NCBI RefSeq assembly: GCF_018143015.1
Contig: NC_054741.1
Coordinates: 61,501,197-61,565,196, forward strand
Reading direction: 5' to 3'
DNA length: 64,000 bases
DNA from: Lytechinus variegatus
Taxonomy: Eukaryota; Echinodermata; Echinoidea; Temnopleuroida; Toxopneustidae
The notes below the pieces were generated by a model, which saw nothing but the letters and a program-made list of their open reading frames with translations, did not search any database and had not been told where the DNA came from. This document shows, piece by piece, positions 1-62,860 of this stretch. Each line of letters begins with the position of its first letter. Within the stretch, counting starts at the first letter, position 1. Position numbers and translations under genes: made by a program.

Positions 1-99
1 AGAGACAGGTGATTCAATCAGAATAGCATTGAAAGAATTGATAGATTAATTCAACGGACTGCAAGAGTTTGACATGGTAAATAAATTAAAGTTGAGAAA

Positions 100-663
100 T
101 TTATCGGCGGGGATCTGAAATATCTAAATCAGGTGACAGGTATTGGAGGATTTGCTTCGACATTTTCATGCCTTTGGTGCAAGTGCCCAAAGAATGAAAT
201 ATCAGACACAAGTAAGAAGTGGTCAATGACTGATATCACAAAAGGAGCTCGAACGATAGCCGAAATCGAAGAATGTGCCAAAAAGTCCAGAAACAGTAAG
301 GCAAAGTTTAATTGCAATAGTTCCCCACTATTTTCATCTGTACCAATTTCAAAGGTAACACCTGACACTTTACACTTATTTTTGAGCATTATGGACAAGT
401 TGGTTTATCAAATAACCTATTATTCACAGCAATGCGATAACTGCATTTGTTTGAACCCAAATCTAAATATTGAAAAGTGTGATAACCGAATGCATTTTCA
501 GACCTTCATAGGTTCAATTGGAATCAGGGAATGGAAATTCGTAGTAAATTCATTTCAACAAGCCATGTCCATTGCCAGGTTGTGGGGCAATCGCTGGCAA
601 GCTCAAGTGGCATGTATAAAACTCACATGCCTGAATGCTTCCAGGAATATAGAACCAGCATAA
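100..663 (+). pseudogene. transposase fragment, unclassified DDE-like family
   Basis: The reading frame opens with GGDLKYL about 11 residues after the first in-frame codon and continues into a C-L-W-C-K-C-P zinc-like motif, then SKKWSMTD, KGARTI and PDTLHLFL. I recognise this order from a widespread family of uncharacterised invertebrate transposase-like proteins, but cannot name the superfamily. The frame degrades after about 560 and stops at 661-663. The 5' part lies outside the window or is lost. No terminal repeats can be assigned. The general plan (Cys pair, then a PLF..VP...D-LH block) is loosely like the RAG1/Transib core, but I do not claim homology. Confidence 0.5.
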
Positions 664-3965: not shown

Positions 3966-5660
3966 ATGTCAATACAAATAAAGGATGAAGGCGACAACAT
4001 TTTACCGCCATTTATTTGCATACTGTGTGAAAGGAAATTGGCACGGTTCAAGTCTTTGCAACGGAAAAAGAAGGCCTGCACAGTCAACATCATCCTGAAG
4101 GAATACAAAGAACACAATAGTGAATGTGAAATTTGCATGGATGGAATCCTGCCAATTGATGATATATTTGAAGCTAGGAAAAAGGCAGCCAAGGAACATG
4201 GACTTTCTTCCAGTAGGCAGCATGATAAGATGTTGTTCTTTTCAATCGCAGTACAAGGCAAGAAGATCAGCGTCCCAAAGAGCATAACAATCTACAATGA
4301 TGGCACCTGGGATATAACAGTTGTTGGGAAGGACTTGAGCAGTTGGGCAAGCAGTATTCCTAAGATATTGAATACTGAAGTCATCTTGGAGCTGGTTAGC
4401 ATGGTAGCTAATGCGAAGATCCACTAAGGCAATGCATATTATACGGAATATGTAAGGAAACATAGCTTCAGAAACTATACTATCGACTCCCACCTTTCTG
4501 AGGAAACAGTGCGTCACATTGCTTGCAAGGGCCTTGTTGTTGATGGAGACAGATGTAGTGTTTGTAAAACAACCAGAAGTGATCTCAATTCAATGCTGAA
4601 TAGGAAAAAAGAATCCACACCCATGAAATCCAGAGTCTCATCTCACACCAGGTTGAATATGCTTGCGAAAAACCAATTGACATTCGGGGCCAAAAAGATC
4701 CAGAAGAACTGGAAAAACCTGAAACTTAGAGCAGATTGCAGGTGAAGGTGCGGACCATTTTCCAAAAAGAAAGTGTAGAGATGGCTTATCAGAAGAACGC
4801 TGACATTGAAACAATTGTGGACAATGCTGCCGAGGAAATACAGAATAATCTGAAAGATAATTCACCACAGATGTTGATATGGGAGGAGCAACTGAAGGCA
4901 CGAAAGATGACAAATAGAGCATCGGATGGCACCCCTTCATCATTCGATGGGCTATTGCCATCCACAGCAAGTCCCCAGCAAGCTACAAGCTTATTAAGAA
5001 TAGTGGTCTTTTGATGTTGCCAGCTGTTGGGACTTTGCATAAATACACCCACTATACAGATGCAAAGCCTGGCGTCCACCAAGACGTCATCGACGAATTT
5101 GTAAATGGAATCAAGTTCAGCAATGAATACCAGAGGAACGTATCCCTGCTCTGTGACGAAATGAACATCCATTCTGGTGTGGTCTACTCTGCATCCACTG
5201 GATCTCTCCTCAGATGTGTGGAAGTGGGGACGATAAATACCGAACTTGGGGCATTTGAGAACAAAATGGAAAGTAGTAATGACTTGGCAAGTCATGCCTT
5301 TTTGATAATGGTGCGCTGCATATTCCTGTCCCACAAACAAGCAGTTGCTTTATTCCCCACATCAAGTATGAGGAGCGGTGACCTATATGAATGCATTCTC
5401 CAAACAGTTTCAGCCGTCGAAACAGCCGGATTGAAAGTTCGAGCAATAGTCTCAGATGGTGCTACATGCAACAGTAAATTTTATGAACTTTGCACCCAAT
5501 CCACTGGAAACTTTTCAGTTAATCCCATTGATGAAGAGAGGAAAATATACTTTTTTGTGGCGTTCCACATCTCCTTAAGACGGTGAGAAATAATCTGGAA
5601 AACGCAGGATTCAACAGGAAGAGCAGGAACTTACAAGTGACTTTGTTTTACTTGTCTTCC
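3966..5660 (+). pseudogene. P-element-like transposase with RAG1-N-like zinc module
   Basis: The frame starts at ATG 3966. An N-terminal module has C-x2-C at 4017/4026, H at 4113 and C-x2-C at 4125/4134; the spacing C-x2-C-x28-H-x3-C-x2-C is within one residue of the pre-RING zinc module of vertebrate RAG1. Next comes a C-x2-C segment near 4556-4570 typical of this transposase group, a lysine-rich linker, then the catalytic core with LLMLPAVGTLHKYT, CDEMNIHSGVVYS (first Asp at 5155) and VSDGATCNSKF (second Asp at 5455), and a final HLLKTVRNNLEN motif. An in-frame TAA lies at 4425-4427, and the frame changes near 4735, 4925 and 5565. No THAP domain was found. The transposase would bind the element's ends in the nucleus and cut them. 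Confidence 0.8.
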
Positions 5661-6589
5661 TAATTTTTGTATTTTGTGTACTTTCATCTTTAAACAATAA
5701 ACTTAGGCCTACCACATATCAACAATTAGAATGTATCCAATGCTGATGCTTCAAGGATCTCAAGGGTGTTTTCACTTTGGGGGAGTACAGCTGACTAGAA
5801 AGCAGGATATTGCAGTTCCTAGCAGTTTTTGTGTTATATATTGTCCAACTTAAAAATGCCTAAACAGTGACCTACATGTATTCATAAGCATAATTGTTTT
5901 ATGTTTCATTTATCAACTGATAAGCCTTATTTCTTTTTGTTTGAATACTGTAACTTAAGATTGGAAGAAATCATTTATCATGGGACTGGTAAACACTTTA
6001 CTAACATGAATATCAGTATGTGGGACTAGAGTGAAATTTCAGATCAGATAATTGGTATCTTTGGAAGAGTTTTAAAAGATGAAATTAAATATCATTTGTT
6101 AATTTTTTGTTTCAGTCATATTTGCTTATATTGGAGATAGTTGCAATGAAAGTTTGTTATATCTGTGCTTTAATGACAAAGTTTAATATATCTATTTCAT
6201 GTTATTGTATTCAAAATCACATAATAGCTTGTAGAATGCTAATTTTTGGTGAATTTTAACATTCTAACAAATATTTACAATTTTTAGTTTGTCAATGGTA
6301 TCGTGTTATTTTTGCCATGACTTAATAATAATAAGTCTTTCACATATTTTATTCTTTTATGAAATTCTTGTGTACAACTGTCTATTTGATTTGACCATTT
6401 TTGTCCATTGTTTTTAAATGAACTATGTTGGGGACGCTTTTTCTATAATAAATAGCATGCAATAAATCCATTTAATCCCCCAAAAGTAATAATCATACAT
6501 AATATTTTTGAATGAAAAACCAACTTGCATCAATGTTCACAAAACAACATTCTTTATAGTAATTTTGGGTTTGAAGTATTGCTCTTACA

Positions 6590-6700
6590 AAATGTTATTC
6601 AATTTCAGAACGATGTACCCGGGCATCGCAAAGTTGGTCTTAAAAGATGCGCAAGACTTGAAAGTAAAAAGTCAATATGTTAACGTATCGGATTGCCAAA
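6590..6700. repeat. fragment of the piggyBac-like MITE family
   Basis: The stretch around GTACCCGGGCATCGC followed by AAGACTTGAAAGTAAAAAGTC matches internal parts of the elements at 11803-13536 (inverted) and 24123-24671 (same orientation). Neither end is present, so it is a truncated copy inside the P element. Confidence 0.55.
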
Positions 6701-7169
6701 GCCTCTCTGATTCCCTTCATGATGTACTAAGCGCAGTATTTATCACACAGATATGTGCGTGGCGAAAAATCAGCTGTTTCTTGCATCACGTCGCAGCGAG
6801 ATGATTCACGACTAGTTGATGCGTTTCAGCTGTGCAGAGAGGATTTTGAATTACTGTCGGCGACTGTGATGGATACAGTCAGAGCTGCTCGATGAATGTC
6901 CAGTCAGGGTAGTAGGTCCATGATTAAAGCAATCTGAATTTCATTTTCCGAGAGACACATCAAAACTTCAGAAGCATGACAAAAGTCTTATTTTGACTGT
7001 CAAATCATTATAGTATTCTGTAATCAGTTTGAATCTATCCAAAATGCCATATAATATCAAAATGCATAAATAATCTGAATAGAAGTCAAGGTGTTTGTAG
7101 AAATGATGTACTATAAAGGGCTACACACCCATTAGCTTGGCACTCTTCCATAGCTTGTAATATTGATAG

Positions 7170-7590
7170 AGATTGTTTTGGAGTGCTAATAGAGGTCCGA
7201 AGTGTGACGTCATCAATTTTCACTTTTGGCATTTCAGCATTTTTTATACCATATTCTGGTAGAGCATGATGAAAAACCCCATTTTCAAAATTTGGTGAGA
7301 ATCGGTCAATGGGGGTCTGAGATATAACCTCATGAATACATAATTAGCCCCTTATAAAGTCAATATATAATTGGCCTGGTTCCAAACATTTAGAACCAGG
7401 CCAATAATACATTGACCATCAATGGGGCTAATTATGTATTCATGAGGTCATATCGATTCCCACCATATTAAGGTTGTGGGGGTTTTTCATCATGCATTAC
7501 CAAAATATGGTATAAAAAACGCCGAAATGCAAAAAGTGATAATTGACGTCATATTTCGGTACCCTCGATTGTTTCTGAGGGCTAATAAAT
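7170..7590. repeat. palindromic MITE
   Basis: The two halves are inverted copies. GACGTCATCAATTTTCAC near 7206 pairs with a copy around 7536-7555, and GAACCAGG pairs at the centre near 7373-7402. There is no coding content. The outer ends are blurred and no clear target duplication is visible. Confidence 0.6.
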
Positions 7591-7992
7591 GCAGACAAGG
7601 ATACAATAATGCACAAATGATTTATGTAAGTCAATCCAAATGAACTCATTTTAAAATGGCTTATTAATGCCTCTTGTGACAGAAACACACTTTGTTTATC
7701 CAGTCCTACACTCATTATATGTGCTAAATTAAGTGTAACTTATGTATGTAATCTGTTGAAGCCATGGTTTGAAACCACAGACTCCAAAGCCATATTTGCA
7801 CAAATGTAACACCACTGATTCAAAGAATATTATCAGCATTACACTTTATAAAAAATACATTATATTTTCACTCTGTATACAGATTTTTGAACAAGAAAAC
7901 CTGACTAAAATAAAAAAGAAACACAAGCAACAACAAAAAACAAATCTAAATAAAAAAAAATAAATAAACTTCAACAATATCAGGTAATTAGT

Positions 7993-8201
7993 GTCAGGCA
8001 ATTCCATAAAATATGTACATCCAACCCCCTATATGTACATGTAGGACCTTTGTGTGAAATATTCCGTCTTTGATTTCTGGTTATTTTGACATTCTGTAGT
8101 GTCAAATGATGACTTGATCAGTTTATTAAGTGAAGTAAGAATTGAGAAAATCGGGGGACAGACGTACAAATGGGTTGACAATTTTATGGAATCGCCCTGA
8201 T
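7993..8201. repeat. small MITE with 20-bp inverted ends
   Basis: It begins GTCAGGCAATTCCATAAAAT and ends with a diverged inverted copy, ATTTTATGGAATCGCCCTGA. It is about 210 bp long and non-coding, and lies directly upstream of the RAG1-like remnant. Confidence 0.55.
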
Positions 8202-8234
8202 AATAAATAATGACTTGTGGCAATCACTTTATAG

Positions 8235-9047
8235 CGGGCCCTGCATGACAATGTTATTACTTCCCTTTACCATGCCAACCGCCTACAAGGCAGAAGGTCT
8301 CCTTTTTTAAAGGTCTTTAAGAAGGTTGTCATCAGGGAGATTGCAGGGGTACAAGTATGGGAACAGAATCAGGATTTCAGAGTGTACATTAGTGATGCCG
8401 AGAAGAGGCTCAATGACCACATTCGTTCCCAAATTGACTTGGCACCAACCCTAATGATGCCAGGCAATTATGCAAGAGAACTTTTCGATCTCAAGAATGA
8501 GGAATGCTTCCTTGAACTCATCTCTTCAGCTCAGATGAGGCATCATCTATCCTCTGTACTTGAAAAATTCAGATCACTTAGGAAGGTCTACAGAGCTCTT
8601 AAGCCAGTTCGAGACAAGGTCACCAAATATAAGGCCACTGCAGTGAAGATGGGCCAAGAACTGCTAGATGACTTTGGTTATGTTATGTGGCAAAATTACT
8701 TGCACAAAGTGATTGAACATGTGCAAGAAATCCTCGATAACCCAGATGGCCCAGGCAGCATTGGAGCTCTTATTGGAGAAGGGAGTGAGGCAGCAAACAA
8801 ACTGTTTCGTCATCTCAGGGATTGTGCTTCAAGGAGAAGTACAGTTGAGGAAAGCTTGCGAGATGTCCTCTGGTTTCTTTGGATGTATACATCCCCGAAG
8901 CTGCGTTGCCTTGCGAGCAGCAAGTTTGGTCAAGAGAAAGTATCACTGTTCAATTTGTGGAGAGGAGGGAAACAGCAAGCCCTAGTACCAGCAAGTGAAA
9001 TATTTGTCTTCGTTCATTATGCAAGTCAACATAGCATTTTCAGTTGA
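8235..9047 (+). pseudogene. RAG1-like (ProtoRAG/RAG1L) C-terminal remnant
   Basis: The translation follows the last third of the RAG1 core. An ALHD motif (8238-8249) sits where RAG1 has ALHCD with catalytic D708. AEKRLNDHIRS-(x)-L-(x)-NYARELFD matches the RAG1 ERKRW...GNFARKLM region. GSIGALIGEGSEAANKLFR matches the RAG1 GSIGAWASEGNESGNKLFR block; Glu codon 8787-8789 aligns with the catalytic E962 position. DVLWFLWMYTSPKL matches DVLKHHWLYTSKYL. Everything upstream of the ALHD motif (the RAG1 N-terminal half and first catalytic Asp) is absent here. About 50 codons after the Glu the frame appears to slip: an overlapping frame reads KYHCSICGEEG and then stops at 8983-8985, which looks like the zinc-knuckle tail of RAG1L proteins. 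No RAG2-like partner was seen nearby. It could be a transposon fossil or the last exon of a decayed gene. Confidence 0.8.
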
Positions 9048-9084
9048 TTATCCAATGATAAGAAAGTTGTAATTAGGCTCGAGC

Positions 9085-9732
9085 CTGTAGTATTTTCCAA
9101 ATTTCATCCTATTTCATTTCTCAACTTTGCCTTCTATTACTCATCACCTTTGAGAGGACATTACCCTTCGATATCAGTTACTTCCACTCCCTGTTTAATA
9201 AACATGTCAACAAGCGGTCAAGAATGACCCTCAGCAGAGCACATTCACCTGTGACTCACCATAAATTCTCCGAATTGGTACCTCTCTCTCCCCTCTCTCT
9301 TTGTTCATTGTTTTTGCATCCTGCATCTCTTTTGGGATGAAAAGCTACCACTTTCTTTTCGAACACTTCTCAAAGTTTTCTTATCCAGTAAACACGCGTT
9401 TTTGAGAAAGTCATCAAATCACTATATACTTGTGTGGATCTCCTTCATTTCACTTGGAGAAAATTCAAGCATTTCATCTTCCACCGCATCATTTCAAATT
9501 TGTGTACTACCCTTATTTCTCCGTCATTTACACTAAGAGAAATCCAAATACGCTTGTGCTAGCCAAGTTATTTTTGTGATATAATCTTGTGGTGATTTTG
9601 TGTCATTGGGATCGTGCAATATTTGGAACAATTTGTTATATTGGATTGTCTGTCGGACCTCTACACGCCTAAAGTCGGTAAGTGGAGATTGGATTATTCC
9701 CATTGCACCTTATAAACCAGCCCCCGCTTCAA
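9085..9732 (-). repeat. dispersed repeat, copy 1 of 2
   Basis: About 650 bp matches 59665-60318 in inverted orientation at high identity, including GATTGGATTATTCCCATTGC at one end and GTAGTATTTTCCAAATTTCA at the other. The minus strand carries a decayed frame (VEVRQTI...ILHDPNDT...) that stays open longer in the other copy. The family is not recognised. It abuts the RAG1-like remnant. Confidence 0.7.
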
Positions 9733-10467
9733 GCCGAATCGCACCTGGAGAGTTTACATTGGTATGAACTATGAAGCCCGTGACACTTATGAAAAATGGA
9801 TTTTAAACAGCCTTGATACATTACAATCATGAAGCATTATGTCAAAATTATGGAGTTGAACTTAGTTCTTACAACTGTTGTAATGGACCTATCTGAGTAT
9901 AGCTCTAATATTTTCTAGTATTTCTAGAAAACAGAAAACTAAAAAAATATTGAGTTTTTGATACACATGTTGTTTGTGACCATTGTTTTGAGTCTTTTTC
10001 AGATATAAAAAAAGTACAAAATATGATTTAATAGATTACTTTTAGTATGTTCATGTTTTGACCTGACAGATAGGTGATGATCTGACCTAAAGAATGTCGC
10101 CTTGCAACCAATTCTCAGCCAAGGGTCAGGCTGATGACCTTCTGTTCCTAGGGAGAGTACTCCATCACTGAGCCACCATGCAGTTTAATTGTATATACCA
10201 TGGATATCCGTAACCCTCCGTCATGACTCACACCTATCTGGACAAGGGCTTTTACCAATAATGTTATCCATGTGTGATAAAATATAACATATGACTGGAT
10301 ACACAATCAATCACCTGACCAGATACAGAGTAATCACCTGACCTCACACACAACATAATACTGGCCACATACTTCTAATGTAAACACATTAGTATGGTGG
10401 ATGTGTGTGGAAGTAGAAGAACAAATACTGCCAGTGATGAGGAGTGTGGTTTGTCGGACGGACTGGT
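9733..10467. other. 3' flank of MPHOSPH9, no gene seen
   Basis: AT-rich sequence without an open frame of note. It lies downstream of the minus-strand MPHOSPH9 stop at 10468-10470 and should contain its 3' UTR and polyadenylation site. A CACCTGACC motif recurs near 10312-10343. Confidence 0.4.
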
Positions 10468-10563
10468 CTAAAATGACATATTGAGGGCGTTGTACTTCCT
10501 AAGGAGCATGCGGACTGATCCAAGCTCTCTTGTCACCTGGTCTAGCCTCTCCTCAAGTTTTTC
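10468..10563 (-). CDS. MPHOSPH9: MPHOSPH9 terminal coding exon 20 (1282-1312)
   Basis: EKLEERLDQVTRELGSVRM is the most conserved C-terminal block of the family. The protein ends YNALNMSF at TAG 10468-10470. Acceptor GTCATTTTAG. Confidence 0.94.
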   Translation of the reverse strand, partial: EKLEERLDQVTRELGSVRMLLRKYNALNMSF

Positions 10564-13500
10564 CTAAAATGACAAAGTGGAAGTGATTTTGATATGAAAG
10601 ATGATAACAGTTATAAATTATATTAAGTGGAAAATGACAATTATAACTAAATTAAATCATATGTTTTATAATGATGAATATCCAATCATCAAATTAAACA
10701 AAAACTTCATTCTATCCATCGAAGAATGATGAGCTAATTTGTAATGAATTAATTCATAATTTAATTAAAGTAAATTATGAATTAATTAATTACTAATAAT
10801 ATTAGTAACATCCTTTCTCAATAGCAATGACAACAAAAATATTTTTCACTTTTGAAACCAAATATTTAATTCATTGGTGACAAATATAGAACATTTGGCT
10901 TGGCATTTCATTCATTCAATTAGGATTAGACAGGTGCAGTTGGTATCCAACTTCCTGCAAATTAGTATCAAATAAATGATAGATACAATTTCTTGACTAA
11001 TTATTATGATTTCTGTAATTATTATGCATACCTGTTGTTCAATTCTCTTGGCATTAGCAGGTCCGGAGTTTGGCAGATGAGATAAGGCACTCTCCAACTG
11101 AAAGGGGAATTAAATAAAAGCATATTAGTCAAATAAAGAAAGAATAAGCTGGTCAAACTCTGGTGGTTTTTCAAAGAGCTGTTTGTTAGCTATCTGGTAG
11201 ATTAATGGCCAAGGGAATTCCTACAATCTCAGGAAAAGGAAAATCCTTAATTATGAACCAATTAAATTAAAACAGGCCTAAAGAGTAATGCAAAACTTCA
11301 ATAACTGTTACCACTTGAAAAATCACAATATGAAACAAGGCAAGAGCGATATTGTGTCTCGCCCACTTGTGAAAATGACCAGAAATATCATGATTTGCGA
11401 GGGCACGCAACAGAATTGTATCGAAACTTCATTGTGAAATGATTGGGATGATAACACTTGTCATTAGAGCCTTGCACGCAAACTTTAATGTTGACCTAAA
11501 AATGACCTTTGACCTTACCATGTGACCTCCGACTGCAGCATAACATGCAGGTCGCCTAAGTACATCTACCATCCAAGTTTGGTTGAAAAGTGACTTACGG
11601 TTGCGAAGTTAGGTGTCATAAGGGAGTCTTGCATGTAAACTTTAACGTTGACCTGAAAATGACCTTTGACCTTACCATGTGACCTCTGACCGCAGCATAA
11701 CATGCAGGTCTCCCAAGTCCATCTACCAGCCAAGTATGGTTGAAAAGTCACTTACGGTTGCGGAGTTAGGTGTCATAAGAGAGTCTTGCATGTAAACTTT
11801 AACCCTAAAAAGACTGGGGGGGGGGGGGCTGATACAGCCCCCCCTCGGCATTTTTCGTGATAAATCTGCCGCGCAAATTTTTTTGACCCCGTCGCTCTCT
11901 GACTTTTTACTTTCAAGTCTCGCACAACCTTTGAGACCAAAATTGTGACCCCCGGGTACGCGATTCGGAAATTACGCAACATTTTGTAAGTGCATGCAGA
12001 CCCAAAATTACTCAAAAAACATGAATTTGTGTACAAATCTAATGCAAATAGTGTTTTTTAGCCAAAATTCATAAATGTATCATTATTTTTCCTTTTACTG
12101 CTTAAAATCAATTAATTTTATCTTTTTTATGGTCAAAATGAAGTCCCCGACAATTTCCATTGAAAAAACAATAAAAAACAAAGAAATACATAAGAAATTT
12201 AGAAAACAATAGAATACATAAGAAAATAATTGTGATGTTGAAATTTTTTAAAAATAAATTTGATCAGGTGCCTATCTAGAGTATGTGAAGCAAAAATTAG
12301 CATTTCAGGGGCATTATTTTATTACCGGTAATTAGAGCAAACTTATGATTTTAAGCATAAATTAGCATAATTAATGAAACGTGAGATTTTTTGCAGAATT
12401 TGATGTTATACAGTGCGTATCAAAAAAAAGTTTACACTTTGAAAAAGCCCTGGGAATTAAAAAATATACAACATGTGGGTAATTTTTTCACATATGATTA
12501 TGGGTTTGGGTCTCATCTATCCAATGAAGGTAAAAGTTTTGACAGAATGTTACACTTGAGTGAGCACTGTCCATTTTTGTAAAGCTCGCAGAAATCTGTT
12601 TGCGCAGAAATGCTTGTTTTCACGCTGTGTCAAGGGGAAAGGGCGAAATCAAACTTACCCTGTGAAGCATTTCTCATAAATTTCCCTAGCACTTTTAGCC
12701 AATTGAAATAAAACGGATACATTTAAGCATTTTGTAACAATTTTGCCGCCCAAATTTGAAATGTCAACACTTAGTAAGCACAACCTTTACCCTTTTTGTG
12801 CCAGCTGGATCTGAGGACATAACTGAATCTAAACAAAAGTTTATATCAGACATCTCCAGCATTTTTCACTAAGTTTTTATCATTTAAAGTCGGTTTACAT
12901 TTCATTTTCATTTAATACTTGTTTCTCCACACTTTTCCCAAGCTTGGCAATGATTAACAAAATGAAAATCAATCCTTACCCATTTCATGTAAATCACAGC
13001 TCAGTGTAAAGCAAATATCGTCACGATGGACTCGGTGTGTGGGGGAGTGGGATGGGGCGCAATGCACTCTTCGAAGTGTTCGGGCAAGGAAACAAGTTTA
13101 AAAAGGTAAAAGATATCTCCATATCAATTTTACTTGCTAATTTCCACGTGTTCTTCATGATTAAGGTCTACTTTTATTCGCATAATTATTTCAAAGTTCT
13201 GCGCAAATCATTTTTCACCAACTTTTCAAAACTAAGTGGTGCTCACTCAAGCGGAAATATTTTTCGACAGTTATATCGTCATTTGCTTAAATGGATCTGT
13301 ACCAATGCTAAAATGTGGAAAAATCGTCAGGATATTACAAATATATAATTTTACAGGATTTTTTCTAAGTGTAAACTTTTTTTTGATACGCACTGTAGTT
13401 TCGTAGATAATGCCATGGGTAATGCGTGTGCCAATTTTCGTAGTGATCGCGCGATCGACGGCCGAGATCATAAGGGGGGGGGCTGAATCAGCCCCCCCGT

Positions 13501-16500
13501 CTTCTTAGGCGTCGAAATAGCCCAGGCTATTTAGGGTTAACGTTGACCTGAAAATGACCTTTGACCTTACCATGTGACCTCCGAGTGCAGCATAACATGC
13601 AGGTCCCCCAAGTCCATCTACCATCCAAGTTTGGTCGAAAAGCAACTTACAGTTGTGGAGTTATGTGTCATTAGGTTTGTGACGGACGGACGACGGACGA
13701 CATTTGGATCCCTAAGTCTGTCTCGCCTTCACCTCTGGTGGGCGAGACAATTATGATAATGTACATACATATAAAGCTTTAGTTTTATGAGAATGGATTA
13801 ATTCTTTATTTAGCTTACCTTTCTTTTCTCTAACATGAGGTCATCTAGTTTCTTACTCTCTTTAGAAAGCCTTTTTAAAATGGCTTCTGGCGTCTCTGCC
13901 GTTTTGGATGTCATCTAGCGGGAAAAATCATAACCCAAATACGTAACATGTTTGAGACATTCTCATGACAAAAGACAGGGAAATGATGACAATAGAATGA
14001 TTTCAAACAACAATGCATTAATAAAGCACAAAGCAGGATGCAAACAGAGGAAACATTTCTTGAGGCTTTAATATCATGAAGCACGCAATAATAATATGCC
14101 AGAAATTTGTGTGAAAAGGTGAAGAAAAATAGCCATGAAACGGTTTCACATTAACGATTTATTGCAAATAATGTTGGGGACCTTTTAGGCCTCCCCCCTT
14201 CAAGTCTTTTTAGGGTTAAACAGCTAATAGCCTTGATAATTTGAACAGCCTTTCCTACAATCATTACGTGTATTTTCCATTCCATTCAATTTTTTGTATT
14301 TCATCAAAATCAAATAGATTCTGAGTTATAAATTCAGATTATACTACTTCATCCCCCACAAAAACCCCAAAAGTTTATGTGGGAAAACTGTTGACAAAAG
14401 ACCTCACCCTTTTGGCATTCTTGTCAGCAGCTAACCTGCTCTCTGCAAATCCATTCTCCCAGTCAGCCCTTGTGATCACATGACCCTCCCTTACATTCTG
14501 CAACGTCGCCTCAAGAGAGTCTTCACCAGCTGGCAAAAGAGAGAAAGAGAGGAAGAAACATAAAGAGTGCATGTGCCTAAGAAAGACACAGATTTGTTCC
14601 ATATCTCATAGAATTCATGATACCAATTTTTCTTCTGAACCACGATAAGTAGCTATTTCAATTGGCATTAGACACTCCTAATTGGGCAATCATTTGTAAA
14701 TAAATTTTGGGAGATGATTCAGAGACATTCTCCTACATGAATATATATAACTCTCCAAGGCCTGGTAATATAGGTGTTTGTAAAGTTAATTGATTTCACG
14801 AATGATTGGAACATGTTCTCATGCTGAATGAAATATCTCAGTTTTTTGTAGTGTTTTTACAAAGCAAGATTGATTATAGTAAAGCCTTAATGAAATTTTG
14901 ACACAACTGTTGACAAGAATTTTTCCAAATTTATTAAAATGCTTGGGAATATGAATTAACACCCAAAAAGGTTCCAGTAATTTATAAAATCATTCATAAA
15001 ATGCTTGTGAATATGAATTAACACCCAAAAAGGTTCCAGTAATTTATAAAATCATTCATAAAATGCTTGTGAATATGAATTAACACCCAAAAAGGTTCCA
15101 GTAATTTATAAAATCATTCATACCTATACTAACAGCTCAAGAAAACAGCACTTGAGTTAAAGCCGAATGATTTTTAACTCACCACCTGGTGTTTGGACTG
15201 ATTTACTACTCATCTCTCCCTTCCTCAGATTCATCCCATCCTTGTTTTTCTTCTCCGAAGCTTGGAAGCTGGCTGACAGATTCCTCCTGGGGCTTGTCCT
15301 CTTCTTCCTCTCGCTTCCTCCCGTTCCACCTCCATCCTTGAGGGAATACTTCGCAAGGTTCTTCCTTGCAGCCTGACTTGGTGAGTCCGCTACCCCTTGC
15401 CTCGGGCTTGCCTTAGAGTTCCTGGTCTTACTGGACATTGCAGTGTCTGGACTTTGGTGCAAGGCCCAGACATGGAGACTGGAGTCATTCTTTCCAGGTT
15501 GGATGATATCTGCGATTGTCGACAGTTTCTTGTAAGAAGCAGTCTTTGCGGACCTCTCCTTCTCTTTGTCAAGAACAGGTGCTGCAGATACTCTCACCCT
15601 AAGTCCTATATTTTCATCTTTACTCTCAATTTGCCTACCCTTGTCTCTTCTCCCACCATTCTTCTCATCCTTTGTCCTCTTTTTATACGACACTAATTGG
15701 TCAACATTTGTCTCATTCTTCCTTACTGGTAAATCTCTGACAGGGATTTCAGTAGAATTCAAATGGGAACTTATGCCTGGCACTGTAGGTGATTGACTCG
15801 ACTTATACTGGCTGCGTGGTGACTTGCCACTGCTCTGCCATCTATCAAACTGTGCTGCTGCTTTCATCATTGGTGAAAGAGGGCGCTCTTCAAGGTCAGA
15901 GTCAAAGGGGGCATGAAGTGTGTCGCGAGGTGAGGTTATTGCTTGAATTGGGGAAATGACATCACGTTGCTCAGTAGTACTGTGAACATTGAAATAATAA
16001 CAGGAGAGTTTATCCACTGATTCGATTTTGACAGTTTTAAACAAGATTGTTTCAGATGTGCATAAAAACAAACTTGGAAAATTTCAATCATTATTCAAAC
16101 AATCATATCCCAAGAGTGCACAGAATGGTGTGTTAGTGATGGTGCACTAATTTGTATTTCAAATGGTGAAACAAGTATGAGGTTTTGGCACCAATTGCTT
16201 TTGCACAACATTGAGTACCTACAATGCTTCCAATGCGACAATGCATGTCTGTACAGTATGAATTCATAGAACAAACATTGCTGAAAGGTTATTGAGTAGA
16301 ATATCTCTTACCTGTTTGTAACATCGATGCTAGGAGCCTTTGCTCCTGAAAACCCTCCGGTCAATATATTGTAGTTTGCTCCTGATCGAAGGAACTTCCT
16401 GTCTTCCACACTCAGACGCAGACTGTCTCCTACACTCGATGGGCTAAGGAACAGAATGAAGAGATGTTAACATGTAAAGGCAAATCAATGACAAATTGAG

Positions 16501-22500: not shown

Positions 22501-25500
22501 TGTAGCTGCTGGCAATGCCTATAGAGCTTGCTCGTATCCGCTCCCACCAGCTCTTCCCCATGACCATTCCCGATGGCAGATGATGCTAGCCTGGCCTGAG
22601 CAAGCTGCTTACGAAGATCCTCAAGCTCTCCCTCATAGTATGCCTCCATGTCAGCGATGTGTCTAGAATACTTCTCCTGAAGGTCGATGCGACTGGATGA
22701 AAGATTGAGGGTTGATAATAAGAATGGTGTTCATGTGGCTATCATTAATAGATTTTTGCACAGAATAATCTTGATTAAAAACAAAATACCTTATAAGTCA
22801 AAATACCATGTAAAGAGATTATTCCTTCATTGGCCTCTTTTTTCAATTTTACATATATGCTTTCGCTCCTTGCTATTTTTACCTATAGGTGAAACCAGAG
22901 GTTTAAACCATGTTTCTAACTTTTTTTTACTCCCTTTGTTGATATTACTAAAAGAACATAACATGTCCCCCCCCCAAAAAAAATAGTTATCTGCTCACTT
23001 TGAAGATGTCCTCGGACTTTCCACAAGCTTGGCTCCATTTGAGTTCTTATTCAAATGCTTGGATGATACCATTTCATCCTGAGGGGTGTTCTGTGCATCA
23101 TCTGACAGCAGGGAGTCCCTCTCCATGGATGGTTGCCCTCCCCTCGGTTTAGAATGGGGTAGGTCCTTGTAGGTATCTCCTTCCTCCAGCTTCCAGTAAG
23201 TAAAATCTGAATAGATGGAACTGGTTTCTTCCGCATCTTTCCGGAGGAAAAAAAAAAAGAATGGAACAGAGGTTAAAATGTCTCAGGTAGGATCTGAATA
23301 CATCTACCTGGTTTATTCCGTATCTGTTTGGAGAAAATGAAATGGCACTGGAGTCATACATGTTGTCTAATACACTAAAAAAAAAAGAAGAGTATTTGGC
23401 TTGGATGACATTTTTAGCACTGACAAACTAGGAAATACCAGAAGCACCCCTGTAACTGTAATTTATATGTTCATTGCACTCTAAACTTCAGAAACTAGCA
23501 GAACATAGAGGAAATGTAGTGCATAACATTGGCTCGAAACAATATTTATTAGCCAAGGGTTAGATGACACACATGTTTTTCACTGTGCTACACCAGCATG
23601 TCTAGTGTTACTAAACTGAAATGAAATGAAAGCTCAAGGCGAATAAGACCACAGTGAAGATAATGCGTAAGTATCAACATTTGTCTTTTTTTTTTTTACT
23701 CGAGTTGGCAATAATTGCTTTTGTTTTTATTTCAAATAACATTTACAATGGTGGGAAAAAAATCATAAGTCTAATTTCCAATCAATAAGCTGTATTCCTC
23801 CTTCTCCTCTCAACCAGAGTCAAACAGCCCATTAAGATAAAGTAGGAGAAAGCTAGCAAACACCTTTACTATTAAAATATGTAAAGTAATTCATGTCATG
23901 TCAAAGGATTTGCTTCTTAAATAAACTCTTCTGCAGATATAAGGTCAGCTCTAGTGATCTTCTTTCATAGATAGAATAGGGTTGTTTTGTTTTTATCTGT
24001 TTTTCTGTATTGTTTATTACTTTTTCTAATCTAATGAAGGGCTCAAGCTGGTATGACCTAATGTAACTGGAAAAATCACAAGCAATGTTTGATGGGGGTA
24101 GCACTAGCCATTGCATCCTTGACCCTAAATAGAATGGGCTATTTTGATGCCTAAGAAGACTCGGGGGGGGGGGGGGGGGGGGGGGGGGGCTGAATCTATG
24201 ATCTTATGATCTCGGCCGTCAATCGCGCGATCGCGACGAAACTTGGCACACGAGTTGCCCATGGCATAATCTACAAAACTACAAGATCAAATTCTGCGAA
24301 AAATCTCATTGCTAATTAATTATGCTAATTTATGCATAAAATAAATATTTTGCTTTAATTAACTAAATAATGCCCCTAAAATGCTAATTTTTGGTAGACA
24401 GACACTTTATATGAATCTGATCAAATGTATTGAAAAAAATTTTCAAAATCACATTTAAAAAAATGTATTTTATTGTTTTCTAAATTGCTTATGTATTTCT
24501 TTGTTTTTTTACTTCGCGTACCCGGGGGTCGCCAATTTGATCTCAAAAGTTGCGCGAGACTTGAATGTAAAAAGTCAGTGAGCGACACGGTCAAAAAAAT
24601 TTGCGGGGCAGATTAATCACCAAAAATGTCGAGGAGGGGAGGGCTGATTCAGACCCCCAGTCTTTTTAGGGTTAAAGCAACAGCTTACAAAGTCAACTTT
24701 GTTCTGCATTTGGCCAAATAAACAGGGCCTTTGGGGATGGAGGGGGGGGAGGGTGAATTTTGTTAAGTGACAGAAAGAGACAGGATAACCGCCACACCTT
24801 TTTGAAGTTGCGTCATCTGTTGCAACCTCTTTTCTTGTTGCTGCAACATATCCTCAACCAGTTGTTTCTGGTGTGTCTGCATCTGTTGCTGGGTCAACCA
24901 CTCTTGCTGTAATCTGTTGACCTGGGACTGGTATTCCTGATGCAAGGCAGCTTGCTCCAACTCAAAGTTACGCTGCATCTCCTCCAGTATGGCTGCCTCA
25001 GTTGCTGTAGCTGCTTCAAATACAAATTTAAAATACATGGGATTCTTGACAGCACATTTTATGTCTCTGCCATTGCCAGACACCCAATTTAAACAAGTGG
25101 AATGCCTCTGGATGTCTCACCTGCATCATGCGATTCAAAATGCAGCAGTGCTGACTTTGAAAACTACTATAACTCGCAGAAGATGTTCAGTGATACTTGG
25201 TTACTCTATGTCCATGTTTTATGAAGTAGACCAATACACTTATAGATATGATGGTAATTCAACAAATACCCCCAACATGGCTTAAGTTCATTGACCTTAC
25301 ATGACCTTTGACCTTGATCATGTGACCTGAAACTAGCACAGGATGTTAAGTGATACTTGATTACTTTTATGTCCAAGTTTCATGAGTCAGATCCATAAAT
25401 TTTCAAAGTTATGATGGTAATTCAACAGATACCCCCATTATGGCCAAAGTTCATTGACCTTTGACCTTAGTCATGTGACCTGAAATGCGCACAGGATGTT

Positions 25501-52300: not shown

Positions 52301-54203
52301 AAAGGAAAGAGAGCTGACCTTGGAGGAGCTGTCACAGAAGGTATGTATTTCATCTTTATGCAGTATTTACATCTTAAATAATTTGGCATATGTTATACAT
52401 ACATGATTAAAGGACATGCATTTTTTAATGGATTTTTTTAAAATGAGAAAATCACTACGGTGAATATGTATAAATATATATATATATTTTAATGTTTTCT
52501 AATAATTGTCACCCTTATGTTGGGATGACAGATTTCATTTGAAATAATACTTTTTTATTGAAGATGAATGTATCAGCATTCTTGGAGAGGTGCTTAGAGG
52601 CAGGCAGGAGCATCATGTAGAAATTTGTGAGCACTTTGGGTGTGCAGACGAGGTGTTTTTTGTTTGTGTCGTGTGTGAGGTTTTCCTGTGCTACAAGCAC
52701 TTCGTAGATGACGACCCATGTTCAGAGCATAACAACTATGCGGTGTGTAAAATTCACATTAATTTCCTTATCAATGTTTTTAAAGAGTAAACACAGACAT
52801 CTGGAGATGCTGTTGCTCAGTTGGATATGAGCTTGACTTCTAATCACAGGACTTGCAGGTCAAAACCTATATAATCAAATTGTTTGTAATTGACAATCCG
52901 GTCTTCTAGTATTCATATTTTAAAAATCCTTAACAGGGTGTATTATATTATTTTCACGAGTTGAAGTAAATCAATATTCAGAACCCACATCAATTTCAAA
53001 CATTTTACAATCAGTATATACAAAACAAATATAATTAGCAATTTCAGTTATCCAAGTTTTCTACTAGTAAGTCTCTTTCATTTTGTGTCTCAAATATTAC
53101 AGGGAGTTGTCAATAGACCCATGGCCTTACCTTGCGAGAAGTCCACAGAATCGGTCAACCCCGATAGACCCATGGCCACACCTTGCGAGAAGTCCACAGA
53201 ATCGGTCAACCCCGATAGACCCATGGCCACACCTTGCGAGAAGTCCGCAGAATCGGTCAACCCTGATAGACCCATGGCCACACCTTGCGAGAAGTCCACA
53301 GAATCGGTCAACCCCGATAGACTCATGGCCACACCTTGCGAGAAGTCCACAGAATCGGTCCATCCCGATAGACCCATGGCCACACCTTGCGAGAAGTCCA
53401 CAGAATCGGTCAACCCCGATAGACTCATGGCCACACCTTGCGAGAAGTCCACAGAATCGGTCAACGCTGATAGACCCATGGCCACACCTTGCGAGAAGTC
53501 CACAGAATCGGTCAACCCCGATAGACCCATGGCCACACCTTGCGAGAAGTCCACAGAATCGGTCAACCCCGATAGACCCATGGCCACACCTTACGAGAAG
53601 TCCACAGAATCGGTCAACCCTGATAGACCGATGGCCACACCTTGCGAGAAGTCCACAGAATCGGTCCATCCCGATAGACCCATGGCCACACCTTGCGAGA
53701 AGTCCACAGAATCGGTCTATCCCGATAGACCCATGGCCACACCATGCGAGAAGTCCACAGAATCGGTCAACCCCGATAGACCCATGGCCACACCTTGCGA
53801 GAAGTCCACAGAATTGGTCTATCCCGATAGACCCATGGCCACACCTTGCGAGAAGTCCACAGAATCGGTCAACCCGGAAGATGGCAAGGTACATTACGTT
53901 ATGTTTTAGAAATATTTGGAACATCAAAGGAAACTCCAAAAATGAAATATAAATATTTTTGAAAACAACTAAATTGTTATTTTTTAGTAAGCAGCCAATT
54001 AAGTAATCAGTTAAACATCAACATTATATTTGGTGACAGAGTTTGGATACCAATACATAATCATTACCTTCCCATATTGAAATTAATTCTCTTTTTATTT
54101 TCGTATGTTTAATTTGTTTTAGATCATATCAGTATCAGCTTATCAATATCACACAACCATGCCAGCTTCTGCACAACCAGCTCAAAACCCAGAAAGGTTT
54201 GAA
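49172..54203 (+). CDS. spliced gene model inside the 11.9-kb element
   Basis: Six exons with consistent GT/AG sites and phases: 49172-49391, 49779-49826, 52299-52340, 52564-52742, 53103-53888 and 54123-54203 (1356 bp, 452 residues so far). Order: an N-terminal block with LLLIRWFRNQSENVVEYKD and VVMPWGRERWHGKVLQIS, which looks like the Tudor/SH3-like start of invertebrate BEN-type proteins; two paralogous short acidic exons; a Cys/His module (C-x4-C-x9-C-x2-C-x5-C-x2-H-x8-C-x2-H); fifteen 17-residue repeats; a short tail. A possible last exon is 55560-55640 (phase 0, stop at 55638-55640). The function is unknown. The model is by eye; only RNA data would settle it. Confidence 0.5.
49779..49826 (+). 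CDS. exon B (duplicated microexon)
   Basis: 48 bp, phase 1/1: EKGERAAAVIEGNITEG. Acceptor TTCTGACAG, donor GTATAT. Paralogue of exon C; flanking intron sequence is duplicated too. Confidence 0.5.
49923..52058. mobile_element. 2.1-kb element with iterated inverted ends
   Basis: The left end carries 8 copies of CCCACAAATGTAATAA in about 170 bp, the right end 11 copies of the complement. Inward, both sides share CCTATAGTAATGCGTTCATA and several copies of GTCCAAAGTCTTTTTTCCAG with ACCCGGTTGTTTC, inverted. The interior keeps repeating CCAGACCCGGTTATT-like motifs. No transposase. Superfamily unknown; no clear target duplication. Confidence 0.7.
52299..52340 (+). CDS. exon C (duplicated microexon)
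   Basis: 42 bp, phase 1/1: DKGKRADLGGAVTEG, paralogous to exon B. The upstream intron (from 52061) matches that before exon B (from 49536), including TGCATGAAAA.AACACTCTAAACT and GTGATATGCTGGAT. Confidence 0.5.
52564..52742 (+). CDS. exon D: Cys/His-rich module
   Basis: Starts DECISILGEVLRGRQEHHVE and continues ICEHFGC...CVVCEVFLCYKHF...PCSEHNNYA. Eight spaced Cys/His residues suggest a B-box-like zinc fold. The donor GTGTGT (52743) is weak but joins exon E in frame; without it the frame stops at TAA 52788-52790. Confidence 0.5.
53103..53888 (+). CDS. exon E: fifteen 17-residue repeats
   Basis: A 51-bp unit repeated 15 times (53116-53880), translating as RPMATPCEKSTESVNPD with changes at few positions (P/L, N/H/Y, T/A). 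Acceptor AAATATTACAG, donor AAG-GTACAT, phase 0/0. Because 51 is a multiple of 3 and the unit has no stops, other frames on both strands are open too; splice phases favour this one. Confidence 0.6.
54123..54203 (+). CDS. exon F
   Basis: 81 bp, phase 0/0: IISVSAYQYHTTMPASAQPA, then QNPERFE. Acceptor TTTGTTTTAG, donor GTAAGT, the strongest splice pair of the model. Confidence 0.5.
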
Positions 54204-59664: not shown

Positions 59665-60318
59665 TGTGAAGCGGGGGCTGGTTAGTATGCAATGGGAATA
59701 ATCCAATCTCCACTTACCGACTTTATGCGTGTAGAGGTCCGACAGACAATCCTCCAATATGACAAATTGTTACAAATATTGCACGATCCCAATGACACAG
59801 AATCACACAAGATTATATCCCAAAAACTTACTTGGCTAGCACAAGCGGTATTTGAGTTTCCTCTTGCAAATGCCGGAGAAAAAAAGGGTAGTACACAAAT
59901 TTGAAATGATATACGGTGGCGACGAAATGGATGAATTTTCTCCAAGTGAAAAGAAAGAGATCCACACCAGTATTACGGATTTGCTGACTTTCTCAAAAAT
60001 GCGTGTTTACTGGATAAGAAAACTTTGAGAAGTGCTTAGAAAAGAAAGTGGTAGTTTTCATCCCAAATGAGATGCAGCATGCAAAAACAATGAACAAAGA
60101 GAGAGAGAGGGGAGAGAGAGGTACCAATTCGGAGAATTCGGGTGAGTCACAGGTGAATGTGCTGTGCTGAGTGTCATTCTTGACCGCTTGTTGACATGTT
60201 TATTAAACAGGGAGTGGAAGTAACTCGATATCGAAGGGTAATGTCCTCTCAAAGGTGATGAGTAATAGAAGGCAAAGTTGAGAAATGAAGTAGGATGAAA
60301 TTTGGAAAATACTACAAG
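59665..60318 (+). repeat. dispersed repeat, copy 2 of 2
   Basis: Inverted match of 9085-9732. Here the frame 59692-59904 is open for 70 residues (MGIIQSPLTDFMRVEVRQTI... then LQILHDPNDTES); no family is recognised. A GAGAGA tract lies near 60100. Confidence 0.7.
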
Positions 60319-62660: not shown

Positions 62661-62790
62661 TTCACGGCCGATTTCAAAACATCTCATGCGATCGATCGCA
62701 GGTCAAACAGCATAACCGATCGATCGCATGTGATGTTCTGTAATCCTTTTGTAATCGATCGCATGCGATGTTTTGTAATCGGCCGTGAAT
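62661..62790. repeat. 130-bp palindromic repeat
   Basis: TTCACGGCCGATTTCAAAAC at the left pairs with GTAATCGGCCGTGAA at the right. Inside are several GATCGATCGCATG motifs. A small MITE. Confidence 0.65.
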
Positions 62791-62802
62791 ATTACGGAAT
62801 GA

Positions 62803-62860
62803 CTGGTTTTAGACACCAGACATTTTGATGGCATGGGTTCGAATCCCACCGCTGCCACCA
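62803..62860 (+). pseudogene. tRNA-Leu-like 3' half ending in CCA
   Basis: CTGGT-TTTAGAC-ACCAG folds as an anticodon stem-loop with anticodon TAG (Leu). After a variable region come GTGGGTTCGAATCCCAC-like TPsiC sequence (TGGGTTCGAATCCCA) and the acceptor strand CGCTGCC plus CCA. The 5' half (D arm, acceptor 5' strand) is missing, so it is not a working gene. An encoded CCA points to a reverse-transcribed tRNA fragment or SINE part. Confidence 0.6.

Follow-up and report, generated by a model that had tools for sequence, protein, structure and literature searches.

Within a 64,000-nucleotide window of the Lytechinus variegatus genome (C2:61501197-61565196), we find a RAG1-like (RAG1L) C-terminal block that is truncated on its 5' side at about position 8316, is frameshifted, carries a broken zinc knuckle, is followed by an LTR lodged between 9083 and 9732 and has changed in a near-neutral manner (Table 1). 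Very probably this is a dead, 5'-truncated sea urchin RAG1L copy from a RAG-like (TransibSU/RAGL) transposon, and it most likely has no present function. All positions without a contig prefix refer to this window, and the genome searches covered 869.6 Mb in 33 contigs.

Table 1. Coordinates of the RAG1L relic, its parts and the repeats around and within it (window positions).
Feature	Position	Strand	Basis and remarks
Fold-back repeat, MITE-like	7196..7560	.	75% identity to own reverse complement
MITE-like repeat	7997..8197	.	16-nt inverted ends
Truncated tRNA-derived SINE, body	8233..8318	-	Gives ORF residues 1-28 incl. ALHD; repeat matches and Rfam
RAG1L C-terminal block	8316..8906	+	197 codons in frame, ORF residues 28-224; protein and DNA matches
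GAG, Glu in RAG1 catalytic-Glu column	8787..8789	+	Alignment; ORF residue 185
TT, frameshift in window copy	8906..8907	+	One base fewer in 4/4 aligned copies
RAG1L C-terminal tail, shifted frame	8908..8985	+	ALRAASLVKRKYHCSICGEEGNSKP then stop; broken knuckle
RAG1L end with neighbouring 3' sequence	8986..9083	+	Homologous to C13 copies (blastn)
Solo LTR, Ty3/gypsy-type	9086..9731	+	TG...CA ends; AGCC at 9082-9085 and 9732-9735
RAG1L relic 3' flank, resumed after LTR	9732..10109	+	79% identity to C13 over 383 columns

The block lies in an open reading frame (ORF) of 270 aa present at 8235-9047. When this ORF is searched against the PDB at E ≤ 1, RAG1L or RAG1 proteins account for 16 of the 22 matches listed (E = 2.6e-52 to 4.7e-20), the closest being amphioxus RAG1L (6b40, E = 2.6e-52, ORF residues 27-228), together with 15 vertebrate RAG1 sequences (E = 1.9e-21 to 4.7e-20). 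The rest consists of 6pqn, a DNA-mediated transposase which we take to be Transib (1.5e-4), and five unrelated proteins with E values of 0.29 to 1. In line with this, the Pfam RAG1 profile (PF12940) scores 84.9 bits on the ORF at a cut-off of 25. By sequence similarity, the C-terminal portion of the core is thus related to the RAG1/RAG1L family far above chance. The initial annotation, which had recognized a RAG1-like C-terminal remnant here, had made this reading depend on the placement of the segment in profile and protein searches and on the alignment of its GEGSEAANKLF block; both came out in its favour, as the segment falls with RAG1 and the block aligns in the PDB as well as the Pfam comparison.

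Three of the motifs from which a RAG1 core order had been read are found where they were annotated, namely NYARELFD (8466-8489), GSIGALIGEGSEAANKLFR (8754-8810) and DVLWFLWMYTSPKL (8862-8903); a fourth, ALHD, belongs to the SINE described below. As proposed, the GAG codon falls in the catalytic-Glu column: in the PDB alignment its counterpart in vertebrate RAG1 is the Glu of SEGNESGNKLF, and the catalytic Glu there is presumably E962. Likewise, NYLHKVIEHV of the window pairs with NYFHKTLAHV of the match, a segment which we take to contain both zinc-binding His of ZnH2. The sole RAG1 profile match in the window, as obtained from the PF12940 genome search, covers profile positions 442-625 of 653, and both catalytic Asp presumably sit upstream of this part. 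Of the complete triad of two Asp and one Glu, the window copy holds the Glu alone. Since the matched part starts past both Asp, the term 'catalytic' remnant overstates what is preserved.

On the 5' side, DNA homology to the closest RAG1L copies begins at about 8316 (blastn), and a MAFFT comparison of 8233-8315 with four RAG1L copies yielded no convincing alignment. The SINE stretch of Table 1 recurs at 29 other places in the genome with 72-78% identity (all 30 candidates scored match, one of them being the window itself). Five examined matches share about 230-260 bp among themselves, as an interspersed repeat, and Rfam, run on three of these five, gives a tRNA match in two (45.3 and 43 bits), while the third, at 22.6, stays below the gathering score of 29. 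ALHD (8238-8249) was therefore rejected as a RAG1 motif, being encoded by the antisense SINE 5' of the RAG1L homology. As read from these alignments, ORF 8235-9047 is a chimera of SINE and RAG1L. The MITE-like repeat at 7997-8197 has 905 candidates in the genome; each of the 40 scored is a match, one being the window copy and the others showing 78-80% identity.

Several other elements were observed in the window. A tRNA-like match at 62781-62857 (+) reaches 30.4 bits against a gathering score of 29, while ARAGORN makes no call; it is perhaps another SINE head. A transposase fragment at 4918-5583 (+) matches the TNP-like RNase H profile PF21787 with 82.1 bits and is presumably of the P-element/THAP9 type. 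At 52965-54017 both strands carry long open frames that overlap; built of a repeated unit (PDRPMATPCEKSTESVN), they have the look of a minisatellite. Finally, a 192-aa open frame at 85-663 (+) with LWCKCPKNE has no Pfam match at E ≤ 0.01 and in the PDB resembles, only weakly, a Rab family protein (E = 0.0013).

Towards the 3' end, past residue 224 (after KLR), the ORF departs from the RAG1L frame. KYHCSICGEEG, which had been likened to the zinc-knuckle tails of RAG1L proteins, is indeed read in an overlapping frame, from 8938 onwards, with the knuckle broken. The tail motif of invertebrate RAG1L is Cx2Cx3GHx4C (PMC7204232); in the window this motif is out of frame and disrupted, the His being replaced by Asn and the last Cys being gone together with a 17-base gap relative to C13. 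The C13a tail keeps GHSKLKC but has CSIS in place of CSIC, and a copy of the C2 cluster reads CSKCGPEGHSK, the final Cys being absent from the expected place.

Further downstream, homology to the C13 copies breaks at 9083 and restarts at 9732, at adjoining C13 bases (blastn). The sequence in between belongs to a family with at least 42 matches from 40 scored of 158 candidates, one of them the window copy. At one place (L059), two copies 97.8% identical to it bracket reading frames for reverse transcriptase, RNase H, integrase and protease, and we infer that the remaining frame between them is gag. Because this pair brackets pol domains, and because the window element has TG...CA ends and a 4-bp AGCC duplication, 9086-9731 is a solo Ty3/gypsy-type LTR inserted into the RAG1L relic. 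The flanking repeats of the initial annotation, a MITE and a 650-bp repeat hugging both sides, thus exist, but the latter is this LTR, situated within the relic; its reading as an element end was rejected, as the relic's flank resumes at 9732. Of the segment 10040-10420, where the resumed flank ends, just the first 70 bases have matches, and these are confined to the two C13 copies. A second copy of the LTR family is found in the window at 59667-60316 (-), 91% identical to 9086-9731.

A protein search of the genome gave 21 matches at six places, i.e. the window, C13:15.70M, C13:21.94M, C2:79.83M (four copies), C9:25.54-25.56M (three copies) and C2:51.35M. The DNA identity to the window is 88.2% over 786 columns for the C13:15.70M copy and 87.0% over 787 columns for the C13:21.94M copy, and of 186 block residues 153 are identical in C13a and 144 in C13b; at the protein level, the C2 cluster shows 42-52% and C9 45-49% identity to the window block. 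Unlike the window copy, the C13 copies retain more of the 5' side, covering profile positions 233-625 and 232-507, and are without LTR and SINE at the corresponding places; they have stops and frameshifts of their own. The widest RAG1 profile coverage in the genome is 233-625 of 653, with seven stops in that match. C13a and C13b are 93% alike across 3.6 kb and may represent one locus or haplotype assembled twice, so that we do not treat them as independent witnesses. RAG1L (L022/L023) and bindin are each found twice on C13 at a spacing of about 6.2-6.3 Mb, bindin (PF02084, best E = 4.0e-66, four matches) occurring at 18.60M and 24.95M. Bindin is a marker of sea urchins, and its presence points to such a source. 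The copies at C2:79833000-79839600 (L024) form a small tandem cluster of four partial RAG1L sequences on one strand, about 1.9 kb apart and with stops. Open frames were also listed in the 6 kb 3' of the C13a copy (L060).

A tree was built from nine of 13 gathered sequences; C2_51 (73 aa) failed the 90-aa filter, and C9_3, C2cl_1 and C2cl_4 were also omitted. In this tree, which is without an outgroup or an invertebrate family A row, the window joins C13a and C13b with a support of 91/94, under the starred level. In the same outgroup-less tree, the seven sea urchin rows are split from amphioxus RAG1L plus RAG1 with 98/98.

The changes between the window block and its relatives speak for decay. 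Compared with C13a, they number 22, 17 and 20 at the three codon positions, compatible with equal rates (p = 0.72), and 41 of 57 are nonsynonymous at a nonsynonymous site share of 78.7% (p = 0.20; 45 of 61 with C13b, p = 0.35). Compared with the C2 cluster, the block shows 65, 40 and 118 changes, for which equal rates are rejected (p = 5e-10), and the window-C13a pattern departs from this deep pattern (p = 0.0097). Neither the codon positions nor the nonsynonymous share thus reveals the purifying selection on the frame that a domesticated gene should display. The data fit unconstrained decay, summed over both lineages and preceded by older strong constraint. Since Ka/Ks is below 1 (0.67 with C13a, 0.74 with C13b), the block may have experienced weak or early constraint after the split. 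Polarised by the C2 copies, the window lineage has 7, 6 and 8 changes by codon position (5 synonymous, 16 nonsynonymous) and the C13 lineage 7, 4 and 5 (5 synonymous, 11 nonsynonymous), with 13 ambiguous; these carry little weight, their number being small and the saturated outgroup introducing a bias. In 2000 neutral simulations, the frame stays open in 42, 31, 21 and 9% of cases at 20, 30, 40 and 60 substitutions, respectively, so that 197 open codons are unsurprising.

RAGL transposons of the TransibSU/ProtoRAG type are characterised by a convergent RAG2L next to RAG1L and by terminal inverted repeats that start with CAC, with target duplications of 5 bp. With regard to a link to a transposon, neither the PF12940 genome search (a single place) nor a whole-window blastn detected other RAG1L pieces in the window, and a translated search gave none among hits starting in 5500-16000. 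Exact matches to CACTATG number two in the window (17698 and 29245; 7.4 expected) and those to CACAGTG five (the nearest at 23581; 6.25 expected), the relic itself being truncated; within the window, no exact RSS/TIR heptamer thus lies near the relic. The RAG2 profile PF03089 has no match in the genome and none in 14 controls either, and the ten genome matches of the RAG2-PHD profile PF13341 are all below the cut-off and outside the window. RAG2L is known to elude profile searches of this kind (PMC7204232), and it is with such profiles that none was detected beside the window RAG1L.

How the segment arose can be pictured as follows. The ancestor would have been a mobile element encoding RAG1L, from which the window and C13 copies would both descend; as is established for amphioxus ProtoRAG, its protein would have been a DDE transposase that cut at CAC-ended terminal repeats, which the C-terminal knuckle would have helped to bind. 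The SINE and the MITE would have reached the 5' break through insertion or deletion. The reading as a relic is supported by the stops and frameshifts that the C13 copies hold as well, and by the lack of any upstream RAG1L piece in our searches. Counted against it are the 197 open codons, a Ka/Ks below 1 and the fact that no terminal repeats or RAG2L link it directly to a transposon. If, instead of being a DNA transposon relic, the segment were a processed copy that a LINE-type reverse transcriptase had made from a RAG1L mRNA, its 5' truncation would explain why the 3' side alone is retained. We regard this origin as very unlikely, given that past the homology limit at 10109 there is no poly(A) either in the window or at the corresponding C13a site.

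The open frame of 270 codons, an acceptor-like TATAG (TTTATAG before CGGGCC) just 5' of it and the Ka/Ks values of 0.67-0.74 could also point to a short exonised or domesticated gene, in which the SINE provides a splice acceptor and the RAG1L block is incorporated into a host protein that lacks nuclease function; such a fate has been argued for another sea urchin RAG1L, P. lividus RAG1Lb (PMC9885083). However, the codon-position changes match equal rates and depart from the constrained pattern, the tail is frameshifted with its knuckle broken, and residues 1-27 derive from an antisense SINE, which makes such a gene highly improbable. That the exonised SINE-RAG1L chimera yields a small C-terminal RAG1L protein, and with it a new, nuclease-free form of domestication, is extremely unlikely.

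Similar sea urchin RAG1L copies are in print. An inactive L. variegatus RAG1L (LVRAG1L) that adjoins RAG2L (LVRAG2L), and TransibSU, are named in PMC4411706; LVRAG1L/TransibSU resembles the window copy in being inactive, with stops and frameshifts and with termini that escape detection. In contrast to the window, where only the C-terminal part is present and RAG2L went undetected, LVRAG1L lies beside RAG2L in an intron of an Elongator gene and keeps most of the core (PMC4411706). Echinoid type II RAG1L sequences are, like ours, solitary, partial and scattered or clustered, and about 60% of all RAG1L sequences were set aside as potential pseudogenes in that survey, which counts three L. variegatus matches scoring above 100 (PMC9885083). 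With amphioxus ProtoRAG RAG1L (6b40), the window shares 95 of 197 residues, including NYARELF, NYLHKVIEHVQE and EAxNKLFR, but the amphioxus protein is a working transposase of full length whose Cx2Cx3GHx4C tail is intact (PMC7204232). Vertebrate RAG1 is identical to the window at 56 of 164 residues, among them the catalytic-Glu block, and its tail is acidic and without a zinc-knuckle motif (PMC7204232). No description of this fragment was found in the open-licence literature, which leaves its unpublished status unproven.

In conclusion, the segment is an ordinary fossil, and L. variegatus relics of such kind are already in print; it has no bearing on the origin of V(D)J recombination. It offers a caution for reading by eye, since an unrelated SINE supplied part of a convincing one-frame RAG1 motif order. 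To the inventory of sea urchin RAG1L it adds one dismembered copy, with a clear later LTR insertion.
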